From NCBI GenBank assembly GCA_013697045.1, contig JACCXJ010000173.1:1-42984 (forward strand): a stretch of 42,984 nt of DNA, in the 5' to 3' direction. Below are positions 422 to 42,784 of this stretch, piece after piece. How positions within the stretch are numbered: the first letter of the stretch is position 1; every line of letters starts with the position of its first letter. The position numbers and the translations under genes were made by a program. Below the pieces are notes generated by a model. It did no database searches. It had not been told where the DNA came from and saw only the letters and a list, made by a program, of their open reading frames with translations. The stretch is from Gammaproteobacteria bacterium. Lineage in GTDB: Bacteria > Pseudomonadota > Gammaproteobacteria > JACCXJ01.

Positions 422-906
422 GTGCGACAGAAGACGAACATCTCCGTTGCATTGCAGCGGGAGCCAGCTGAGAAGATCGCAAACGCCATCATGGCGTTTA
501 TTGGCGAAGTTCCGACAACGACCGCAAGAAGGAGCAAAGCTCCGGAGGTCACTGCAAGGTCGAAAGCAAACCACTCTGCCGCGAAAGCAGCACTTGCAGC
601 CGGCACATTGGCGCTTCCTCCTGGACCCGTCGGATGGCTAACCATTCTTCCCGAAATGATTGCCGTGTGGAAGATTCAGGCGCAGGCGGTCTCGGACATC
701 GCTGCACTGTATGGGAAGAAGTCTACGCTTAGGAGGTTCGAATAACTCAAAGAGCTATCGGCAAGGGGATTTCAAGATGGCTACCCATAATCGGCGCTGT
801 TGGTGTCGGTGGATATGCGTACTATGACACGGTACAAGTGGCAAAGACGGCAATGGACCTGTTCGGAAGCTCGATCGATATTGAGCCGCCGGCGAGTGAT
901 GCCTAA
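422..906 (+). pseudogene. EcsC-like protein, internal deletion and frameshift
   Basis: A GTG-initiated frame (422-745) encodes about 107 residues with an Ala-rich stretch and the block LPPGPVGWLTILPEMIAVW followed by IQAQAVSDIAALYGK, as seen in EcsC-like proteins. It then runs out of frame. In another frame, from about 751 to the stop at 904-906, there is a fitting C-terminal block: GISRWLPIIGAVGVGGYAYY then DTVQVAKTAMDLF. The central part of the family is absent, so this is a deletion derivative. The stop codon TAA is embedded in GCCTAAC, the 5' core of an attC site, which suggests the gene was an integron cassette. The family name is recognised from motif pattern only; function is unknown. 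Confidence 0.55.
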
Positions 907-907
907 C
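901..907 (+). other. attC 5' core half-site (R''), separated from its partner by an IS91 element
   Basis: GCCTAAC fits the RYYYAAC consensus exactly and overlaps the stop of the preceding gene, as is common in integron cassettes. The bases AACCAG that follow recur at 2855-2860, where an attC-like arm resumes and ends in GTTAGAC. I infer that one attC was split by insertion of the IS91-family element. Confidence 0.45.
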
Positions 908-917
908 CAGTAACCAG

Positions 918-1146
918 TAAGGATTGAGACGACCTGAAAGGTCGTTTCAATCCTTTGTTCAAGAAGCCCGGTTGCGGGCAGGGGGCTTTAGTAAGGGGAA
1001 AGCTTCAGCAGCGGGCGGGTAGCGTGGGGAGGGATGGCGGTGGCTTGAGGGGTAGACCGGTCAGAGTAGCAGTAGCGGATGCGTTTGGGGTGGGTTTTCT
1101 GAGCGCAGATGAGGGCAAGGAACCCATCCGGCAAGGCAAAGTTGGC
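918..1146. repeat. IS91-end direct repeat, copy 1
   Basis: About 229 bp that recur in the same orientation at 3393-3620 with scattered substitutions and small indels. The copy opens with a near-perfect palindrome at 921-953 (arms GGATTGAGACGACC and GGTCGTTTCAATCC, one mismatch), then a GTTCAAGAAGCCCG block with a terminator-like hairpin. It continues to GGCAAGGCAAAGTTGGC. This copy is attached to the transposase remnant. Confidence 0.8.
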
Positions 1147-1267
1147 GTTGGGGAAAAGGGGGCCCTGGCCCGGAGGAAATACCGAGCGCAGAGGCCCCTG
1201 GCAAGGGTGGTGGTGGCTATGGTTTATCCATTTGCTGCGAGGGCGGTCGAGCCCGGGGGCCCGGCAC

Positions 1268-2399
1268 TCATGGGCAAAGGCCGAGTGCTGCGGGGGTACG
1301 CACCGCGCTATGGAAGCGCAGTGGCCCGCCGCAGGCCCGGCAGATCGGTTCATCCTGTACCTCATAAAAGCCGGGCTCCTGCCCGTTCGGTTGTGACCAA
1401 GGGGGTAGCTCGATCTCGGGCACGGTCACGGTGAAGCCGTGGGCCAGTTCGACCAGGGCCTTGATGTCCTCCAAGGGCAGCTTGGCGGTGGGCGAGAGGA
1501 AGCCGTAATAGCGGACTTTCATGAAGCCTTTGGGCAATACATGCTGGAGGAAACGGCGGATGAACTCCAGTGGATCGAGCGTGAGGGTCCTCAAACGAGT
1601 GCTGCCGGGTTTTTTGTAGGAGAAGGAGACAGCGTTTTCCTCGACCTTGAGGATGCGGTGATCGGAGATGGCCACCTTGAAGACGTAGGGGGCGAGATAC
1701 TGGATCGGCCTCGGCGTTGGAGACCGCCTGGCAGTTGACGTTCCAGTCCTGCTGCCAGGTTTCGGAGGGATCTGATCGAGCAGTGCGGCCTTGCGGATCC
1801 GCGCGCGGCACTTGCCGCGGAAGAGTCGTGAGAGGGCTTTCACGGGCAAGAAGAAGCTGGGGCTCGAGGCATACCAGGCGGCCATCCTCGGAGGAGAGTG
1901 CCCCGCCCGGCACCACGTAATAGATGTGGGGGTGATACTGCAGCTGTCGGCCCTAGGTGTGGAGCACACCGAAGAAGCCGGCTCGATCGGCGCCGAGAAA
2001 GCGGGGATCGTGCACCAGGGCCTTGATGGCTTGGGAGGAGGCCGCGAACAGCGCGTCGTAGCCCAGTTCCTGGTGGCTGCGCAGAAACGCGCGCAGGGGC
2101 TCGGGCACCGTGAAGGTGAGCATGAAGTGGTGGCCTGGCAGTTGGCGTTGCAGCCCCCGCTCGAGCCACTGCTGGGTCTTGCGGTGCTGGCACTGGGGGC
2201 AATGACGGTTGCCGCAGGCGGCCGGGAGGATGTGAGGATGGCCGCAGTCCTCGCACTGGTAGCAGACCGAGCCATAGGCCTCGGTGCGGCATTGGCAGAT
2301 GGCCTCGATGACCTTGTGATGTTGGGCAGGGATCTGCTCGCCGAAGCGCGCCAGGTACTCCGGTCCGAAGCGCTGGAAGATCTGTTGGATGGCACCCAT
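1268..2399 (-). pseudogene. IS91-family (Y2, HUH) transposase, frameshifted
   Basis: The first frame (2399 down to a stop at 1953-1955) encodes the N-terminal zinc-binding domain, with C-x2-C, C-x4-C and CPQC motifs (residues about 45-75), and the start of the transposase domain. After 1955 the coding sense continues in another frame with HPHIYYVVPGG. In a third it continues with the domain end (LAPYVFKVAISDHRIL, GFMKVRYYGFLSP) and a C-terminal zinc-ribbon-like tail. At least two frame breaks are therefore needed. The HUH motif reads H-I-Y where family members have H-U-H, so a metal-binding histidine is also lost, while the Y-x3-Y active-site pair seems kept. The start ATG at 2399 overlaps the integrase stop (TGAGATG). 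Confidence 0.75.
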
Positions 2400-4995: not shown

Positions 4996-5937
4996 TCAAG
5001 GCCGGCGGTCCACCTCGGCACCCTCCTTCTTGACGGGCGCCCGCACCAGGTCCGCGCGGGAGACGCCCAGCCACATGACAATGGGGCTCGCTACCAGCGC
5101 CGAGGAGTAGATGCCGAACAGGATCCCGATCGTCAGCGCGAGCGCGAAATAGTGCAGCGTCTCGCCGCCAAACAACAGCATGGAGAGCACGGCGAGCTGG
5201 GTACACCCGTGCGTGATGATGGTGCGCGACATCGTGCGTGTGATGGCATTGTCGATGATGTCCGGCACGGTGGCGACGCGCATCTTGTGGAAGTTCTCGC
5301 GCACGCGATCAAACACCACCACCGATTCGTTCACCGAGTAACCGAGGACCGCGAGCACAGCCGCCAGCACGCTGAGCGAGAAGTCCCATTGGAAGCACGC
5401 GAAGAACCCGAGGATGATAACGATGTCGTGCAGGTTGGCGATAATGGCCGCCAAACCGAACTTCCATTCGAAGCGGAACCACAGGTAGATGACAATACCG
5501 AACGAAACGAACAAGAGCGCGAGCCCCCCGTTCTCCAACAGCTCCTCGCCGACCTGCGGCCCCACGAACTCTACGCGCCGCAGCTCCGCGCTGCGATCGA
5601 CCTTGCGCAGCGCGGCCAGCACGGTCTCGGAGATCTCCGCATTCCCCGCGCCCTGCTTGGCCGACAGTCGGATCAGCACGTCCCTCGGGCTGCCGAAGTT
5701 CTGTACCGACACATCGTGGTAGCCAATTCCCGCGACGGCCTCGCGGATCCTGGGTAGATCGGCCGGCTGGCCATAGCTCACTTCCATGACCGTACCGCCC
5801 GTGAAGTCCACCCCCAGGTTCAGTCCCTTGATGGTCAAGAACAACACCGCGAGGATGAACGTGACCAGTGAGATCACATTGAACGCCAACGCATGGCGCA
5901 TGAACGGGATGTCTTTGCGGATCTTGAAGAATTCCAT
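4996..5937 (-). CDS. secF: Protein translocase subunit SecF
   Basis: 313 residues, six predicted membrane helices and one periplasmic loop. With SecD it uses the proton-motive force to pull preproteins out of the SecYEG channel at the inner membrane. Visible motifs are GLNLGVDFTGGTVMEV (D1-type loop, residues about 38-53) and GYSVNESVVVFDRVREN (D4 motif; many homologues have NDTVVV). It is the last gene of queA-tgt-yajC-secD-secF, 48 nt after secD. The C-terminus ends in a charged tail. No defect is seen. Confidence 0.96.
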   Translation of the reverse strand: MEFFKIRKDIPFMRHALAFNVISLVTFILAVLFLTIKGLNLGVDFTGGTVMEVSYGQPADLPRIREAVAGIGYHDVSVQNFGSPRDVLIRLSAKQGAGNAEISETVLAALRKVDRSAELRRVEFVGPQVGEELLENGGLALLFVSFGIVIYLWFRFEWKFGLAAIIANLHDIVIILGFFACFQWDFSLSVLAAVLAVLGYSVNESVVVFDRVRENFHKMRVATVPDIIDNAITRTMSRTIITHGCTQLAVLSMLLFGGETLHYFALALTIGILFGIYSSALVASPIVMWLGVSRADLVRAPVKKEGAEVDRRP

Positions 5938-5985: not shown

Positions 5986-7863
5986 CTAGGCCCACCTCGT
6001 GTTACCGATGGCGATCCTCGCAACCTTGCGGCGCCCGCCGTAGATGAGATTGACCATGCTGCGCGAGACCATGACGGCGCTGAACATGGAGGTCAAAATG
6101 CCGAGACACAATACCACGGCGAAACCGCGGATCGGGCCGCTACCGAAACTGAACAAGGCCACGCCGGCGATCAAGGTCGTGACGTTGGTATCCAGGATGG
6201 TGCCCCACGCGCGGTCATAGCCCGCGCTGATGCTCGCCTGCGGCGTGTTGCCGTTACGCAGCTCTTCGCGGATGCGCTCGTTGATGAGCACGTTGGCGTC
6301 GATCGCCATCCCGATCGTGAGGGCGATGCCGGCCATGCCGGGTAACGTGAGCGTCGCCTGGAGGAGCGACAAGAGCGCGATGAGCAGGCACACATTGACC
6401 CCGAGCGCCACGACCGCGGTCACGCCGAACGTGTGGTAATAGGCGATCATGAACACCGCAATCGCGGCGAAACCGACCCAGGTGGAATGAAAACCGCGCT
6501 GGATGTTGTCCTGGCCGAGGCTCGGCCCGATTGTGCGCTCCTCGATGATGCTGATGGGCGTGGCGAGCGAGCCGGCCCGCAGGAGCAGGGCGAGGTTGCG
6601 GGCCTCCTCGGTGCTGTCGAGGCCGGTGATCTGGAAGCGCTTGCTCAATTGCTCGCGGATGGTGGCGACGTTGATGACCTCCTCGACGGTGCGCTTGACC
6701 TTCACTTGCTTACCACCCACGGTCTTGGTGTCCACCTTGTTCTCGATGAACACTACCGCCATGGGCCGACCGACGTTGTCCTTGGTGGCACGGCTGAAGA
6801 TCCCGGCGCCCTTGCTATCGAGGGTGATGAACACGGCCGGCTGGCCTTCGGTCTGGTCGATGCCGGAGGCGGCATTGACGATGCGGTCGCCGGTCAGCAT
6901 CACCTGGCGTTTCAAGAGTATAGGCCTACCCTTGCGGTCCCGATACAGCTTGGCGCCGACCGGCACCTTGCCCGCCGCGGCGGCCTCTGGATCACCGTCT
7001 TCGTGCACCATGCGAAACTCCAAGGTCGCGGTGGCCCCGAGGATCTCCTTGGCGCGTGCGGTGTCCTGAACCCCGGGGAGCTGCACCACGATGCGCCCCT
7101 CGCCCTGCTGCTGGATGATGGGCTCCGCGACCCCGAGCTCGTTCACGCGATTGCGCAGCGTGGTCAGGTTCTGCTGCAGGGCCAGCTTGCGCTGTTCCTT
7201 GACATATTCGGGTTTGACCTTGAGCCTGAGCGCCGGGTCCGGTCCCTGGTTCACTTCGGCCGAGGTCAGGTCGGAGGCCTCCTCGGCGATGACCGCCGCC
7301 GCCTTGGAACGGCTCTCGGCATCGCGGAAGATCACGAGGATACCGCCGTCCTCCTCGCGCGCTACGGTCTTATAGCGCAGCTTGTTGTCGCGCAGGAGCG
7401 AGCGGAGATCGGACACGAAGCGCTCCTCGACCATGCGCTCGGCGGCTTGCATGTCCACCTCCATGAGGAAATGGACCCCGCCACGGAGATCGAGACCCAG
7501 GAACATGGGCTCGGCACCGATGGCGCGCAGGAACGCCGGGGTCGCGGAGGCGAGGTTCAAGGCCACCACGTAATCGTCGCCGAGCGCGTTCGCGACGACC
7601 TCCTTGGCTTTGAGCTGGCGCTCGGTGTCGTCGAAGCGCACCAGGATGCTGCGCGGGCCGCGTTCCAGCGCCAGGGGCTTGAGCCCGGCGCCCTTGAGCG
7701 CGTCCGCGATCCGCCCCTCTAATGCGGCGTCGATGGGCGCACCTCGCACCGGGTTGACCTGCAGGGCCGGGTTGTCGCCGTACAGGTTGGGCAGCGCATA
7801 GATCACCCCGAGCGCGAGCACGATCAGGATCAACAGGTTCTTCCACAAGGGATAGCGATTCAT
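5986..7863 (-). CDS. secD: Protein translocase subunit SecD
   Basis: 625 residues, the usual gammaproteobacterial SecD size. There is an N-terminal membrane helix (LLILIVLALGVIYALPNLYG), a large periplasmic P1 domain, then five membrane helices. Family motifs are GLDLRGGVHFLMEVD, GRIVVQLPGV, GSLATPISIIEERTIGPSLG and GMAIDANVLINERIREE. It forms the SecDF-YajC complex with its neighbours. It begins 21 nt after the yajC stop and is followed 48 nt later by secF, so all are probably co-transcribed. Confidence 0.97.
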   Translation of the reverse strand: MNRYPLWKNLLILIVLALGVIYALPNLYGDNPALQVNPVRGAPIDAALEGRIADALKGAGLKPLALERGPRSILVRFDDTERQLKAKEVVANALGDDYVVALNLASATPAFLRAIGAEPMFLGLDLRGGVHFLMEVDMQAAERMVEERFVSDLRSLLRDNKLRYKTVAREEDGGILVIFRDAESRSKAAAVIAEEASDLTSAEVNQGPDPALRLKVKPEYVKEQRKLALQQNLTTLRNRVNELGVAEPIIQQQGEGRIVVQLPGVQDTARAKEILGATATLEFRMVHEDGDPEAAAAGKVPVGAKLYRDRKGRPILLKRQVMLTGDRIVNAASGIDQTEGQPAVFITLDSKGAGIFSRATKDNVGRPMAVVFIENKVDTKTVGGKQVKVKRTVEEVINVATIREQLSKRFQITGLDSTEEARNLALLLRAGSLATPISIIEERTIGPSLGQDNIQRGFHSTWVGFAAIAVFMIAYYHTFGVTAVVALGVNVCLLIALLSLLQATLTLPGMAGIALTIGMAIDANVLINERIREELRNGNTPQASISAGYDRAWGTILDTNVTTLIAGVALFSFGSGPIRGFAVVLCLGILTSMFSAVMVSRSMVNLIYGGRRKVARIAIGNTRWA

Positions 7864-34029: not shown

Positions 34030-34045
34030 CCGTGCGTTTTCCTGT

Positions 34046-34096
34046 TTCTAACGTCGAAAATAACTGGCTGGCGCGGCGCGCCAGTCCGGGTTGAAT
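34046..34096 (-). other. attC site between NYN cassette and gene-less cassette
   Basis: On the minus strand it starts ATTCAAC (perfect RYYYAAC; the + strand shows GTTGAAT at 34090-34096) and ends GTTAGAA (near-consensus R'). CTGGCGCG and CGCGCCAG make a strong inner stem. The length of 51 bp is within the attC range. Confidence 0.6.
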
Positions 34097-34276
34097 GAAA
34101 AGGTAGGCATTTAAGTCGCCCCTGGCCCTTTAATTCCGCTGCCTTGTTCACGCTCCTCGTAGTCTCCTTACCCTCCGGGCGCTCCGCCGCCGGCGCAACA
34201 CTCGATACGGGTGGGTGGTTGGCCCTTACCCGACGGGGACTTGCACCCCGCAAGATGCGCCAAGTTTCGCTTGGCA
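34097..34276 (-). other. Gene-less integron cassette (candidate non-coding)
   Basis: About 180 bp between two attC sites with no credible gene of its own; the open frame that crosses it runs through the attC sequences. On the minus strand it contains GCAAGTCCCCGTCGGG-type sequence and inverted blocks (TTGGCGC/GCGCCAA-like and GGGTGCAAG). It may encode a small RNA or a promoter. Confidence 0.4.
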
Positions 34277-34330
34277 CAATAACGCCCCGCTTCACCGGCG
34301 CTATGCGCCGAGCGCAAGCGGTGGTTAGAT
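34277..34330 (-). other. attC site downstream of apeA
   Basis: On the minus strand ATCTAAC (perfect R'') overlaps the stop codon of the HEPN gene, and GTTATTG is a degenerate R'. ACCGCTT/AAGCGG and GGCGC/GCGCC form the arms around an ATA loop. Length 54 bp. Confidence 0.6.
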
Positions 34331-35719
34331 TTCCCCTTTAAGCTTCTGCGCGACACGGTAGTTCCCGCCTGCAACTTGGTCGAGCTGGTCGGTGGTGAAA
34401 CCGAACCTTCTCAAGAACAGCAGCGTGAACATCGCTTCGAGCTTCATTGACACCTCCGAGAGCGCCTCGCCGGACAAGGCGGCCTGCTTGCTGGACTTGT
34501 CGTAGTGTGTCAAATAATTGCGGGTCGTTACCACCTCGTGTATCAGTGCACCGACGCGTGAGCTATCACCAAAGTAGTGGCTGATCGGGTCGATCAATGC
34601 TCTTAGCCGCTGACGAAGCGAGAGTTCGTTCGCGTAGGTCAGGCGAGTCTTGAGCCACTCGGTATGGCTCTGTGGGCACATAGATAGCACGGTGCGTTTC
34701 ACGTCTTGAAACTCAGAGTCCGGCATGACAGTCTTGTCGCTTGTCCTGCGGTGGAAGGTTTCGAGTCCCTGGACAAGGAAGAGAAATCTCGTTTCGACAT
34801 ACGCGTGTCTTGCGGTCGTCGATGCGAAGTACAGATTGATTGCGGGCTCCAACACCTCATAGTCAGCAAGCCAAGCTGAGATAAGGTCGCCGAGGTTTGC
34901 GGCGACGGCGGCATACGGAAACAGCAAGCGGTGCGAATCGACCGCTGGGGCTTTCTCGGAGTGCGGCAGGCTTGGGAAGTAAACCTGGAGCCCCACCGGT
35001 CGCGTGTTCTCGCCGATCGTCTCCGAGATGGTGGGCGACGATACACCTACGCCCGTTAATGCAACGGCTTCATCTATCGCGAGACAAAGGAAGGTGTTTA
35101 CTCGGTGAACGACCCGCAGCAGATCGTGGAAGGCTGTGGGCTTTGCAGCCTCAATCTCAAGGAAAGCTTCTTGAGCAACCCGGGCTTCCGTGATGCTGCC
35201 GTAGCCGAAGGGGATGGTGGAGCGGAATTTGATGGACAGATCAAGCGCGCCGCCCAGCTTGTAGGCCTGAGCAGGCGGTGGACGGAAAGTGATAGCGGCT
35301 TGCTTCAACTCATGGGCATCCCATTCATGCGAGACCGAGATACCCGTTAGGCCAAGCCACTGATTGAGCCCTTCGACTGAGAAAATGACCCGTGCGAACT
35401 CCAGTGGGTCTGTCTCGTGCAGATGCGCACCAAGGAAGAGGTACGCAGCGGTCGCACTCGCCTTTGGAATTCCCGGGAAGCGAAGTTGTGTAGAATAGGT
35501 GAAACAGTCGAAGAGCGTAGCCGACTTGCCGTTCTCCGTGACGCCGTGAATTATCGGGGCAGGCCTAGGCTCAAACTCGGGTAGCTCTCGAAAAGTTCCT
35601 AGCACGTCGAGGGCGACCTTTCCCGAGTCAGATACCTTCAGTGTTCCGGGTATCTTGTGTTGCAAGTTGTCGGGCAGCCAGAAGTACCCTTGCAGACCGA
35701 TAGACTCTTTTGGGCGCAT
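34325..35719 (-). CDS. apeA: ApeA-family HEPN protein (integron cassette)
   Basis: 464 residues. The N-terminal domain (GLQGYFWLPDNLQHKIPGTL) matches the ApeA N-terminal domain; the C-terminal HEPN domain has TTRNYLTHYD, an intact RNxxxH ribonuclease motif (residues about 415-420). ApeA is a single-gene anti-phage system thought to cut RNA after infection. It begins 10 nt after a perfect attC core and its stop is embedded in the next attC, so it is a textbook one-gene cassette. No frameshift or missing residue seen. The name is given by domain similarity; activity is inferred. Confidence 0.8.
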   Translation of the reverse strand: MRPKESIGLQGYFWLPDNLQHKIPGTLKVSDSGKVALDVLGTFRELPEFEPRPAPIIHGVTENGKSATLFDCFTYSTQLRFPGIPKASATAAYLFLGAHLHETDPLEFARVIFSVEGLNQWLGLTGISVSHEWDAHELKQAAITFRPPPAQAYKLGGALDLSIKFRSTIPFGYGSITEARVAQEAFLEIEAAKPTAFHDLLRVVHRVNTFLCLAIDEAVALTGVGVSSPTISETIGENTRPVGLQVYFPSLPHSEKAPAVDSHRLLFPYAAVAANLGDLISAWLADYEVLEPAINLYFASTTARHAYVETRFLFLVQGLETFHRRTSDKTVMPDSEFQDVKRTVLSMCPQSHTEWLKTRLTYANELSLRQRLRALIDPISHYFGDSSRVGALIHEVVTTRNYLTHYDKSSKQAALSGEALSEVSMKLEAMFTLLFLRRFGFTTDQLDQVAGGNYRVAQKLKGEI

Positions 35720-35729
35720 GGCGGAGGAA

Positions 35730-35817
35730 ATCTAACGTCGTGCTCTGCGGTGGGCAACCGCAGACGGTTGATGAGGCGCGGCGGTTCTGGCCCGTCCGCA
35801 GCAGCTACAAGTTAGAT
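35730..35817 (-). other. attC site between DUF1780 gene and apeA
   Basis: 88 bp. On the minus strand it has R'' ATCTAAC and R' GTTAGAT, both perfect to RYYYAAC/GTTRRRY. The inner arms GCTGCGG/CCGCAG and a variable GC-rich centre complete a well-formed attC. It is the best site in the window. Confidence 0.8.
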
Positions 35818-35824
35818 GTGGCAT

Positions 35825-36439
35825 CTAGTTGACCTTCCGGTGCACGATGCGCTTGAGGGCACCTCGTAGGAACAGCGGTGCGTCGCTTGCCGCGGTCAAT
35901 GTGCAACTACGATGGCGCATAAGAAATGATACGGGTCGCCAGCCAAGCGCTTCGACGGGCGCGAGGTCCGGAAATGGCGTTTCCTTGAGCCCGGAAACGT
36001 CGGTAAGATTCACGTAGAACAAGAGATCAAGGCTCTTGCGCGCTTCAGGTGAGTACTTCGTTTGCGCGAGACTCTTGGCATCCACGTAAACAGACGCACA
36101 AACATCAAATACTGCGACGTCTCTCGGCGTGTACATTTCGACGAGATCGGCGGGCGAAGTTGCCTCGAGTGCCTTTTGCAGCCCTACCTTGTATTCTTGG
36201 TGCCTACGGCGCCCCTCGGAGAGAATCTCCTTAATCTCGAAATTGGCTTCTCGGAACTTAACGTCGGGCGGATCCTGCGCCAGCGACTGGACTTCGCTGT
36301 CCTCAAAGGCCACGCCGAGGTTCGCCAGGAATTCGTGAACAACCCAGCGTTCCCGCTCCGGCTTCTTCGACGAGCGGAAGAATTCCACTGATTCAGCGCG
36401 AGCTTTGCGCTGCGCCTCCAAATACTCATCGTCGGTCAT
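35825..36439 (-). CDS. DUF1780 family protein, putative nuclease-like (integron cassette)
   Basis: 204 residues. KPERERWVVHEFLANLGVAF, DPPDVKFREANFEIKEILSE and GRRRHQEY match DUF1780, in which the D...EIK arrangement (D at about 58, E-x-K about 73-75) resembles a PD-(D/E)XK nuclease core. Function is not established. It ends 8 nt before an attC and starts 70 nt after another, so it is a single-gene cassette. A DUF1780 member beside ApeA suggests a defence or DNA-metabolism role, but that is inference. Confidence 0.75.
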   Translation of the reverse strand: MTDDEYLEAQRKARAESVEFFRSSKKPERERWVVHEFLANLGVAFEDSEVQSLAQDPPDVKFREANFEIKEILSEGRRRHQEYKVGLQKALEATSPADLVEMYTPRDVAVFDVCASVYVDAKSLAQTKYSPEARKSLDLLFYVNLTDVSGLKETPFPDLAPVEALGWRPVSFLMRHRSCTLTAASDAPLFLRGALKRIVHRKVN

Positions 36440-36508
36440 TTGCTCTTACTCCAAATGCTGTTATCCACTAATACACTGCCTTCAGATTGAACTTGGCCTA
36501 AGTATAGG

Positions 36509-36571
36509 GGCTAACGTTGTGGCGATGAGCCGTGCGGTCTTTCCGCGTCGGTCTCCATCGCCAGGTTAGAC
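36509..36571 (-). other. attC site between the 475-residue gene and DUF1780 gene
   Basis: 63 bp. On the minus strand it has R'' GTCTAAC (perfect) and R' GTTAGCC (near-consensus). The inner arms TGGCGATG/CATCGCCA pair over 8 bp and a second stem GACGCGGAA/TTCCGCGTC-like region lies at the tip. Confidence 0.75.
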
Positions 36572-36656
36572 CGCATTTGAATCACGTACAACCGCTTCTT
36601 CTGACGTAGGGCACAAGTAAACGTCAGGCACTCCTCACGGCGCTCAGCAGCAAAAG

Positions 36657-38084
36657 CTACTGGCTGTGAAGGCGACGAACGGCACTGAGCCAGATATCCC
36701 GCTCGACGCACACCGTCAGCTGATCGTCAACGCCACAAATACTTCCGAGTTTTGCTATCGCCGCTTTCAAAAAATGGCCGCCATTTCGACATTCGTATTT
36801 CACATCCTCCAGCAAGGGCTCGATGCTGTCGCGTAATGTCTGACTATCGAACGGTCTCGTGATTTGGAGTGGTTCGCACAAAGACAGCACAGACTCCCAC
36901 GTGTGCGTGATGGCGTTGGCTGTCGTCCCGTCGAGAACTCCGATGGAGCGCTCCACAAACTGAGCGGCTTGACGCAACAGATGCTCGACTGGAAGACCTA
37001 GGGCGTAAGCTCGTTGGCAACATTCGAGAAGTGCAGCACTAACGCCCAAGTCTGGGGTGTTGAATCGGCTCCCGACTGCTCCCTCTCCTAATGGCACACC
37101 ACCCTGAGTCCGACCCAAACGGGTAATGTCGTCTAGGCTTGAGCATATCCGGTCAGACCATGCGGGCTCCTTCGCCGACTCGGGAATTGCCAGAACGCGC
37201 GACAAGATGAGAAGTGTATAGAACACCTTTGTTTCCGGATGGCTGTCGGCGCACCAATACGGAGCGCCGACGGACACCATCTCGAATAGTTGCTCCATTC
37301 CGTGAATGATCTGACGATTTAGCTGCGGCTGCAGCGACTGATACGATGATTCGAGCCTCAACAGATTGAATAACTCGAGTAGATATGCATGTGAGTACGT
37401 CATTCTGGGGTCATGGACCCAGACGCCAGCGAGGCCCAGCAGCAGTCTGGCTCGCGCTTCAACCCAACGTCCCACCTCACGCACGCTCGATTCATTGAGA
37501 ATGTGCGCGCGTAGCCTGAGCAACGAAAGGGTCGATGTTGCCGTATGTCGAATCTCCTTTGCGCAGCCACGGATTTCGTCTGGGTTTGCCGGCAGAGCAG
37601 GAGTTACGAGTCCAATGTCCGTACTATTCCGATCGACCCATCGTCGAACGAGTTCTGGCTCAACTTCTGGAATGGACACGTTGAGAAATGCGAAGCCGCG
37701 GAGAGCGTGGGCGATATGGGTAATGCTTCCCTCACGCAGGTACGAGTCCTTTCTCGCGAGGATCTCGGGATCGTGTGGATAATTCAGCTCGATGTACTTG
37801 TTTATCGTGAATCCCCAGTTCCCCACATCCGGCAGTTGATCGAGACGGAGCAGTACATAAGCCATCCGAATGAGCGGTACCAGCCTCTCCGGTAATCCGG
37901 CCGGGACAATCGTCTCTCTAAGCGGATGTCGCGTAGGCTGCCGAGGGACTGTTGTGCTAGTGCTTACCGCGGTAGTTCTTGCCAACTGTCGGCGCTTCGC
38001 TGCCCATGCGCCAATCCGTACGGCCGCCGTGCCGACAGCCACAAGGCCAGCGAGGATAGCGATGATGGATTCAAAGACTCCCAT
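36657..38084 (-). CDS. Unknown membrane-anchored 475-residue protein (integron cassette)
   Basis: Not recognised. One N-terminal membrane helix (SIIAILAGLVAVGTAAVRIG) is followed by a basic region (AAKRRQLAR) and a largely alpha-helical soluble part. GNWGFTINKYIELNYPHDPE, TPALPANPDEIRGCAKEIRH and NAITHTWESVLSLCEPLQIT recall alpha/alpha-toroid repeat proteins but no catalytic motif is clear. The topology predicts a cytoplasmic C-terminal domain. It is complete and intact, with an attC 86 nt after its stop. Its place among defence-type cassettes makes it a candidate new defence or sensing protein. Confidence 0.65.
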   Translation of the reverse strand: MGVFESIIAILAGLVAVGTAAVRIGAWAAKRRQLARTTAVSTSTTVPRQPTRHPLRETIVPAGLPERLVPLIRMAYVLLRLDQLPDVGNWGFTINKYIELNYPHDPEILARKDSYLREGSITHIAHALRGFAFLNVSIPEVEPELVRRWVDRNSTDIGLVTPALPANPDEIRGCAKEIRHTATSTLSLLRLRAHILNESSVREVGRWVEARARLLLGLAGVWVHDPRMTYSHAYLLELFNLLRLESSYQSLQPQLNRQIIHGMEQLFEMVSVGAPYWCADSHPETKVFYTLLILSRVLAIPESAKEPAWSDRICSSLDDITRLGRTQGGVPLGEGAVGSRFNTPDLGVSAALLECCQRAYALGLPVEHLLRQAAQFVERSIGVLDGTTANAITHTWESVLSLCEPLQITRPFDSQTLRDSIEPLLEDVKYECRNGGHFLKAAIAKLGSICGVDDQLTVCVERDIWLSAVRRLHSQ

Positions 38085-40225: not shown

Positions 40226-40269
40226 GGTCAATCGATTACAACTGCGGCGGCTGACGCGCTAACGCCTGG

Positions 40270-41184
<915 letters not shown>

Positions 41185-41660
41185 CCCAGGCTGCTCGATC
41201 GTGTCCGCGACGTCATCGGCGGCTGCGTTGCAGCGTTCAGACAGAGCGGGCTCCGTGGATGGGATCCGGGGCTTCATGCTGTTCCGTCGGGGAGTGGCAT
41301 CCCGAGGTGACGGGGCGGTGGAAAGGGGGGCGTTTCTGAAGCGCTCGCGGTCAAGAGCAACGTCGCGTCGTCCATACGGAACCACGCGCCGAACGCCATC
41401 GTGTTCTACCGGCAGATATTGAGGAAGGGGTTCGGCTGGCTGGAGGGTATAGCGCGTGTGAGGAAGCCGGCCAGGCGACCGATCGTGTTCACGCGCGACG
41501 ACGAGCGAGCGGTCCTGGCGCGCTTGGACGGGGTCCGAGGGGGGATGGCGAGCCGCTTGTACGGCTCCGGGTTGCCGCTCATGGAGGATGCCAGCGGCGC
41601 GTCAGGGACGTCGATTCGGACAGGACCCCCTCCAGCGATCCCGGTTTCGACTACAAGCTC
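41185..41660 (+). pseudogene. intI: Integron-type tyrosine recombinase (IntI-like), decayed
   Basis: Fragments in several frames follow the order of an integron integrase: PRLLDRVRDVI (41185 on), VDGIRGFMLF (about 41250-41290), GAFLK, RNHAPNAIVFYRQIL, GWLEGIARVRKPARRPIVF, TRDDERAVLARLDGVRG, MASRLYGSGLPLMED, VRDVDS. The catalytic Arg expected in YGSGLRLME is Pro here (codon 41575-41577). Box II is not readable. Many frame breaks make it non-functional. It faces away from the minus-strand cassettes, the standard intI/cassette geometry. Confidence 0.65.
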
Positions 41661-41947
41661 CCTTGTGACTGAAAGATCGCCGGGGAGCAGTATGCCACCT
41701 TGGCACCGCCTATCTTGGGCGACCGTGGGGCGTTGCTCGGTAGGGAGTACCCCTCCCCTTCCCACGGGATGACGGCGTTCCACCACCGCACGGCGTCGGG
41801 CGGCCGCTCCTCTGCCGCGGCCTACGAGAGGCAATGAGGAGACGTGACACCCTACTACCTGGCGACGGTGACAACCGCAAGTTAAAAGCGTCGTAGGGGA
41901 TCTTTGGTGCGTGCACCAAGATGGATCACCTCAGATCCCTCGCCGAT
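41661..41947. other. Stretch after the integrase remnant
   Basis: Contains no recognisable domain. It probably holds the decayed C-terminal part of the integrase (the box II region), too degraded to align by eye. Confidence 0.35.
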
Positions 41948-42115
41948 TTCGTTCCCCCGGTCGGTACCGTCGTTCCCCGTACGGATACTTCATTCCGCCG
42001 CGCCGGTACGTTGTTCCCCCGTACCGATACTTCGTTCCCCCGCACCGATACGTCGTTCCCCCGTACCGATAGTTCGTTCCCCCGCACTGATACGTCGTTC
42101 CCCCGCACCAGAACT
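41948..42115. repeat. 21-bp tandem repeat, about eight units
   Basis: Units such as TCGTTCCCCCGCACCGATACG repeat every 21 bp; the first three are diverged, the last five are nearly identical. The unit length keeps all frames open: on the plus strand a SFPRTDT heptad, on the minus strand GNEVSVR-like heptads, the latter resembling a beta-solenoid repeat. Neither frame has a convincing start or ribosome-binding site, so coding is undecided. Confidence 0.8.
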
Positions 42116-42784
42116 TCATTTCCGAGCGTGTCGACGACGTATCCGCCCGTGCCGGCGATGGTCCGGGCCGCGTAAACGTCGTCGGCAAGGCCGTGGGTTT
42201 CAGTCCATGGGGAGGAGATCAAGCTCAACATGGACGCGGAGGCTGCTTCGAGGCGTATCGGGCAAGCGATCGAGGTGTCTGTCGGGTGCAAGGAGGGGTC
42301 GCAAAAGCCCAACGCCCTTCCCTCTGAACACTCGGCGTGTCCAGAGACGACCCCGGGCACTAGCCGGCCACGCTCAATAGATCACCGCTTTAAGATCCCC
42401 CCTCCCCCCGGGAGAGAGCTGAGGGACAGGGGATCGAAGAACGGCTATCAGTCACCGTGCTCCATCGGTCCCACCTTCCCCCGGTCCCATGAACCGGTGG
42501 TCTCGATACGCCTAATACGCGAGCAGCCCACGGTCCCGATGCGACTGAGAGATCCGCGCCGTCTCCCCGGGGTCGCTGGCTGTAGCCCGATCTCGGGCCC
42601 ACCACGGGGGCGCCGTTGGCGTCTTTCCTCGGACCCCCCGGGGATCCCATGAAGGACGGGATACTGCCGCACGACCTAAACGATTCTGCATCCCAGCCGA
42701 TGAGCCAGGCGCCGCGCGAACGAGTCTCGCGGCCGATTGAACCGCACCCACGTAAAGGCGACATTCAAGACAGGACCAGCATCT
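42116..42784. other. 669-bp stretch without a recognisable gene
   Basis: Open frames exist on both strands because of GC bias, but none has known motifs. The minus-strand frame leading into the tandem repeat (41926-42360, 144 residues) is the only one with an ordered pattern. Confidence 0.4.

Follow-up and report, generated by a model that had tools for sequence, protein, structure and literature searches.

ApeA is a two-domain, single-gene system with an Rx4H HEPN motif that was reportedly described by Gao et al. in 2020, and its E. coli protein is said to have been experimentally tested. Here we compare with it a gene on a 42,984-nucleotide contig (C319), which was analysed in its entirety and is called the window below, from a gammaproteobacterial genome of 4.57 Mb in 417 contigs (G000). 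Judged by the Pfam domains ApeA_NTD1 and HEPN_Apea, the window gene has the ApeA layout and motif; it differs from ApeA in that its subgroup is PDC-S58 in PADLOC and in that the gene is an integron cassette. PDC-S58 is a phage defence candidate family, and we know of no function test for it. With a Klebsiella relative as the query, E. coli genomes gave no match.

Growth arrest through RNase activity is the mode of action of other HEPN defence systems that consist of one gene or are small (PMC11087260, PMC13405049). Tha, which is found in S. aureus prophages, resembles the window protein in being encoded by a single gene and in carrying a C-terminal HEPN domain with an R-N-x3-H motif (RNSIMH), the histidine of which is required; it differs in its length of 301 aa, in having no discernible N-terminal domain and in its trigger, which is tail proteins (PMC11087260). 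A type IX retron has been reported to deplete tRNA through a HEPN dimer, and the same paper cites a 2026 ApeA preprint whose title names deoxydinucleotides as the trigger (PMC13405049).

That integrons serve as libraries of anti-phage cassettes is already known, mainly through the expression of cassettes of unknown function, and Darracq 2025, Getz 2025 and Kieffer 2025 are the studies cited for this (in PMC12444791 and PMC12409362). As far as these citing papers portray them, the defence cassettes of chromosomal and mobile integrons consist of a single presumed defence gene between attC sites, as in the window. Our literature search, whose reach did not extend to the three 2025 studies, returned no paper that places ApeA-family genes in cassettes. 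A HEPN family in an integron cassette was listed in 2013 under PDB 3jrt (Anantharaman 2013, PMC3710099), which is a likeness to the present gene; the 3jrt family is listed apart from ApeA in that work, and the window protein matched no PDB chain by phmmer or by a profile search of PDB sequences. We read the window gene, with a probability of about 0.8, as an integron cassette that encodes a stand-alone RNase-type defence protein of the ApeA family (PDC-S58) and is moved by an integrase. What would be added to the known integron defence cassettes is recurrence, together with transfer that is exactly bounded by the cassette.

The gene and its catalytic motif are located as follows, in window positions:

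34325..35719, minus strand: ApeA-family / PDC-S58 gene, 464 aa, with PF18862 on residues 10-283 and PF18739 on residues 315-445
34505..34522, minus strand: codons of the HEPN catalytic motif R400-N-Y-L-T-H405, from the translation; R, N and H invariant; modelled helix 386-405

The original prediction placed an ApeA N-terminal motif and an intact RNxxxH in a HEPN domain within this gene, and profile searches recovered both domains. ApeA_NTD1 (PF18862) matched with 156 bits (E 1.4e-45) and HEPN_Apea (PF18739) with 113 bits (E 2.1e-32), both far above the curated cut-offs (25.5 bits for PF18862). The best PADLOC model was PDC-S58, a full-length match over residues 7-449 (292 bits), and a second match was to the HEPN-only model Cas13-ApeA (185 bits). 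The motif is contained in TTRNYLTHYD, and R400, N401 and H405 were invariant in an alignment of 12 family members that are 16-38% identical to the window protein. In a full AlphaFold2 model (mean pLDDT 79) the N-terminal domain is mostly beta and the C-terminal domain all-helical; modelled alone, the C-terminal domain is again predicted to be all-helical (pLDDT 88), with the RNYLTH motif inside a confident helix rather than outside a helical fold. Because Foldseek gave no significant match to a solved structure, either with the full model or with the HEPN domain alone, the assignment of a HEPN fold is based on the match to the Pfam profile, the all-helical prediction and the presence of the motif. 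Judging from its sequence, the protein is a complete ApeA two-domain architecture encoded by an intact single gene, and its putative anti-phage function is taken over from the family name.

Because other HEPN defence proteins act in this way, we infer by analogy a mechanism in which the N-terminal, mainly beta-strand domain most likely senses an infection signal, and in which the HEPN domain at the C-terminus most likely forms a dimer and, on release, cuts RNA by means of R400 and H405. The infected cell would then stop growing and the phage burst would be lost. The cassette itself would owe its mobility to an integron integrase that acts on the attC in its folded form.

Three attC sites lie on and beside the gene:

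35730..35817, minus strand: attC upstream of the ApeA gene, part of the preceding DUF1780 cassette; R'' ATCTAAC, R' GTTAGAT, 88 nt
34278..34330, minus strand: the ApeA cassette's own attC; the TAA stop falls in R'' ATCTAAC, and R' is degenerate, GTTATTG
36509..36571, minus strand: attC preceding the DUF1780 cassette; GTCTAAC..GTTAGCC

Read in the direction of the gene, its start is GTTAGAT-TTCCTCCGCC-ATG, with the R' core at 35736-35730, so that the ATG follows a perfect attC core after 10 nt, as had been proposed. The gene ends in GAA-ATC-TAA-C, and the stop codon (34327-34325) falls within the R'' (34330-34324) of the next attC, which agrees with the second boundary that had been claimed; gene and recombination site therefore form one minimal unit. 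The sites at 35730-35817 and 36509-36571, which are 0.8 kb apart and flank one gene, have consensus R''/R' boxes that are nearly fully complementary, and dinucleotide shuffles put the chance expectation for sites as good as these two at 0.15 per window. Compared with shuffles, the gene-strand hairpins have z-scores of -4.6 (35730-35817), -4.2 (36509-36571) and -3.9 (34278-34330). In gene orientation, all three have extra bases left unpaired on their R''/L'' side, which is the side expected for extrahelical bases when an attC is read in the direction of its own gene. Both flanking sites are correctly oriented and the R'' of the downstream one is perfect; the one correction to the earlier description concerns the R' of that site, which departs from the consensus GTTRRRY and is abutted by an intron remnant. 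Relatives have a consensus R' in the attC of their own cassette (GTTGGGC in G171, GTTAGGT in G383), and we read the site at 34278-34330 as a damaged attC, not as the absence of a cassette. With the ApeA gene as the sole gene between attC sites that fold as hairpins, the single-cassette claim is upheld: on the evidence of the sequence, the window gene is a single-gene integron cassette with a correctly oriented attC on each side. The combination of an R' within 40 nt upstream and an R'' at the stop occurred in 0 of 98 further long ORFs from the loci fetched.

The remaining elements of the array and its surroundings are:

35825..36439, minus strand: DUF1780 gene of the neighbouring cassette, putative endonuclease, PF08682
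34124..34243, minus strand: remnant of a group II intron (D1-D4) that separates the ApeA attC from the one after it; RF02005, 27 bits against a gathering score of 49, E 1.7e-4
34045..34096, minus strand: attC-like site before the NYN-LOTUS gene, ATTCAAC..GTTAGAA
33232..34029, minus strand: gene with NYN and OST-HTH/LOTUS domain matches, directly after the attC-like site
40259..40310, minus strand: further attC-like site
41341..41586, plus strand: integron-integrase (IntI) remnant, TIGR02249 positions 52-134, 50.5 bits

From right to left on the minus strand, the array thus reads attC, DUF1780, attC, ApeA, attC, intron remnant, attC-like site and NYN-LOTUS, the last of which is apparently the next cassette gene. 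Immediately upstream of ApeA, the DUF1780 cassette is framed by a well-formed attC on either side. The intron, next to the ApeA attC, seems to have gone in at its R' and may be the cause of the degeneracy there. The IntI remnant, about 5 kb away on the upstream side of the ApeA gene, is divergent from the array, as in an integron; no intact intI was found beside the array on the window contig. A second contig of the same genome (C156, L029) carries a full-length IntI reading with one frameshift (865-1807, minus strand) and attC sites at 5677-5739 and 6042-6115, and this short cassette array represents a second integron of the genome. A TIGR02249 match at 2437-2583 was excluded from the ApeA integron as an integrase piece adjoining an IS91-type transposase. 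Across the genome we counted 37 TIGR02249 matches over about 18 contigs, many of them short fragments.

Seven genome surveys (369, 17, 399, 346, 85, 337 and 349 genomes, some repeated) were searched for PF18862, which proved rare, occurring in 36 genomes. Flanks were read for the fuller matches, in a sampling that is uneven and in which G171 and G383 represent one genus. Six genes have an R' within 40 nt upstream together with RYYYAAC at the stop, and in 6/6 the TAA lies inside the R'': those of the window (G000), G171 (L019), G383 (L036), G706 (L037), G818 (L049) and plasmid pTunz6 of Thiothrix unzii (L013). Relatives carried in cassettes are likewise single genes, equal in length to the window gene. 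Eight genome members score at least 150 bits to PF18862, with five in cassettes (G000, G171, G383, G706 and G818) and three outside them (G1008, G1370 and G1310). A named defence family is repeatedly found in cassette form across several bacterial families, and these recurring cassettes are a concrete set of test genes.

Beyond these, the gene of G196 (L021), whose product is 16% identical to the window protein, has a hairpin ending in GTTAACT upstream and a downstream attC that matches the G818 one in all but 2 of about 65 positions; its flanks were read by eye and the boxes contain mismatches. In a provirus copy (L023), GTTAGAT precedes the gene and the contig stops at ATCTAA. The presumed defence gene is thus seen in cassette, plasmid and provirus contexts, and most of the plasmid and provirus relatives inspected are without attC. 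Because the more divergent PF18862 matches beyond the close group are likewise mostly outside cassettes, we confine the cassette claim to the close group and G196. The sole match of a scan of genome contigs with the single window protein as query (L009, 28% identical) has an R'' at its stop and no R' upstream, and was not retained. A tblastn search of phage records gave no match.

Comparison of whole loci places the limits of homology at the cassette edges. The G706 and G818 loci, from different families of one order, are 95.5% identical in DNA across a stretch of about 1,485 bp bounded by the R' region and the far end of the attC, and have no similarity outside it, so that one near-identical cassette is common to two families exactly to its boundaries. 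Homology between the G171 and G383 loci is likewise bounded by the cassette, except for attC repeats that recur through both loci, as in chromosomal integron arrays. The coding sequences of the two pairs have dN/dS values of 0.21-0.23 (0.21 for G706/G818), which places these cassette genes under purifying selection. In a 21-member tree of the family, the cassette label has to change five times, and well-supported branches force at least three of these changes; gains are indistinguishable from losses; the window protein is on a long branch, with a best identity of 37%. Given the relatives in the same kind of cassette in other bacteria, the presumed defence gene seems to pass from one genome to another as a self-contained unit. 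Whether ApeA-family genes form a dedicated cassette lineage, repeatedly captured and exchanged by integrons of Gammaproteobacteria, we regard as evenly poised; this reading takes in the plasmid and provirus copies, with or without attC remnants, which would derive from the cassette pool or feed it.

We then considered whether the window copy is a passenger, carried unexpressed in a relic array and at present without function in its host. No recognisable sigma-70-like promoter was found at 34200-36900 and no Shine-Dalgarno-like sequence in the 10-nt leader before the ATG, for which reason this copy may be silent; it may also be immobile, because the R' of its own attC, beside the group II intron remnant, is degenerate and the nearby integrase is a remnant. 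These points speak for a passenger, but the reading frame is intact at family length and has kept all invariant residues, and related cassettes are under purifying selection. We therefore consider a functionless passenger possible and distinctly less probable than a cassette-borne defence gene.

Integron cassettes often carry toxin-antitoxin genes, and the HEPN RNase might accordingly serve to stabilise the cassette or array by toxin-like addiction, or serve a general stress response, instead of defending against phage. A toxin role is also known for HEPN RNases (PMC3710099). Against such a role speaks the window cassette, which has no antitoxin partner and whose cassette-borne relatives are likewise lone genes of equal length, and the full-length match of the protein to defence-candidate models and the position of some plasmid relatives near SIR2 or restriction genes also favour defence; we consider this explanation unlikely. 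That the flanking attC sites are chance palindromes around an ordinary chromosomal gene, as the imperfect downstream R' and a contig without a complete integrase might suggest, is scarcely credible in view of the low number of perfect sites expected per window, the extrahelical bases on the expected side, the recurrence of the stop-in-R'' anatomy in relatives and the end of homology at the cassette edges in two pairs.

Three further observations were made. A short tandem repeat at 42000-42130 of the window codes on the minus strand, in ORF 41926-42360, for heptapeptides resembling VRGNDVS. SIR2-family genes lie near ApeA-like genes, downstream of them, on plasmids of Klebsiella and Listeria (L015, L017). 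Finally, a 605-aa protein with a weak ApeA_NTD1 match of 29 bits (L059, G781:C40) starts just after a GTTAGAA attC-like core, and its gene is possibly another cassette.
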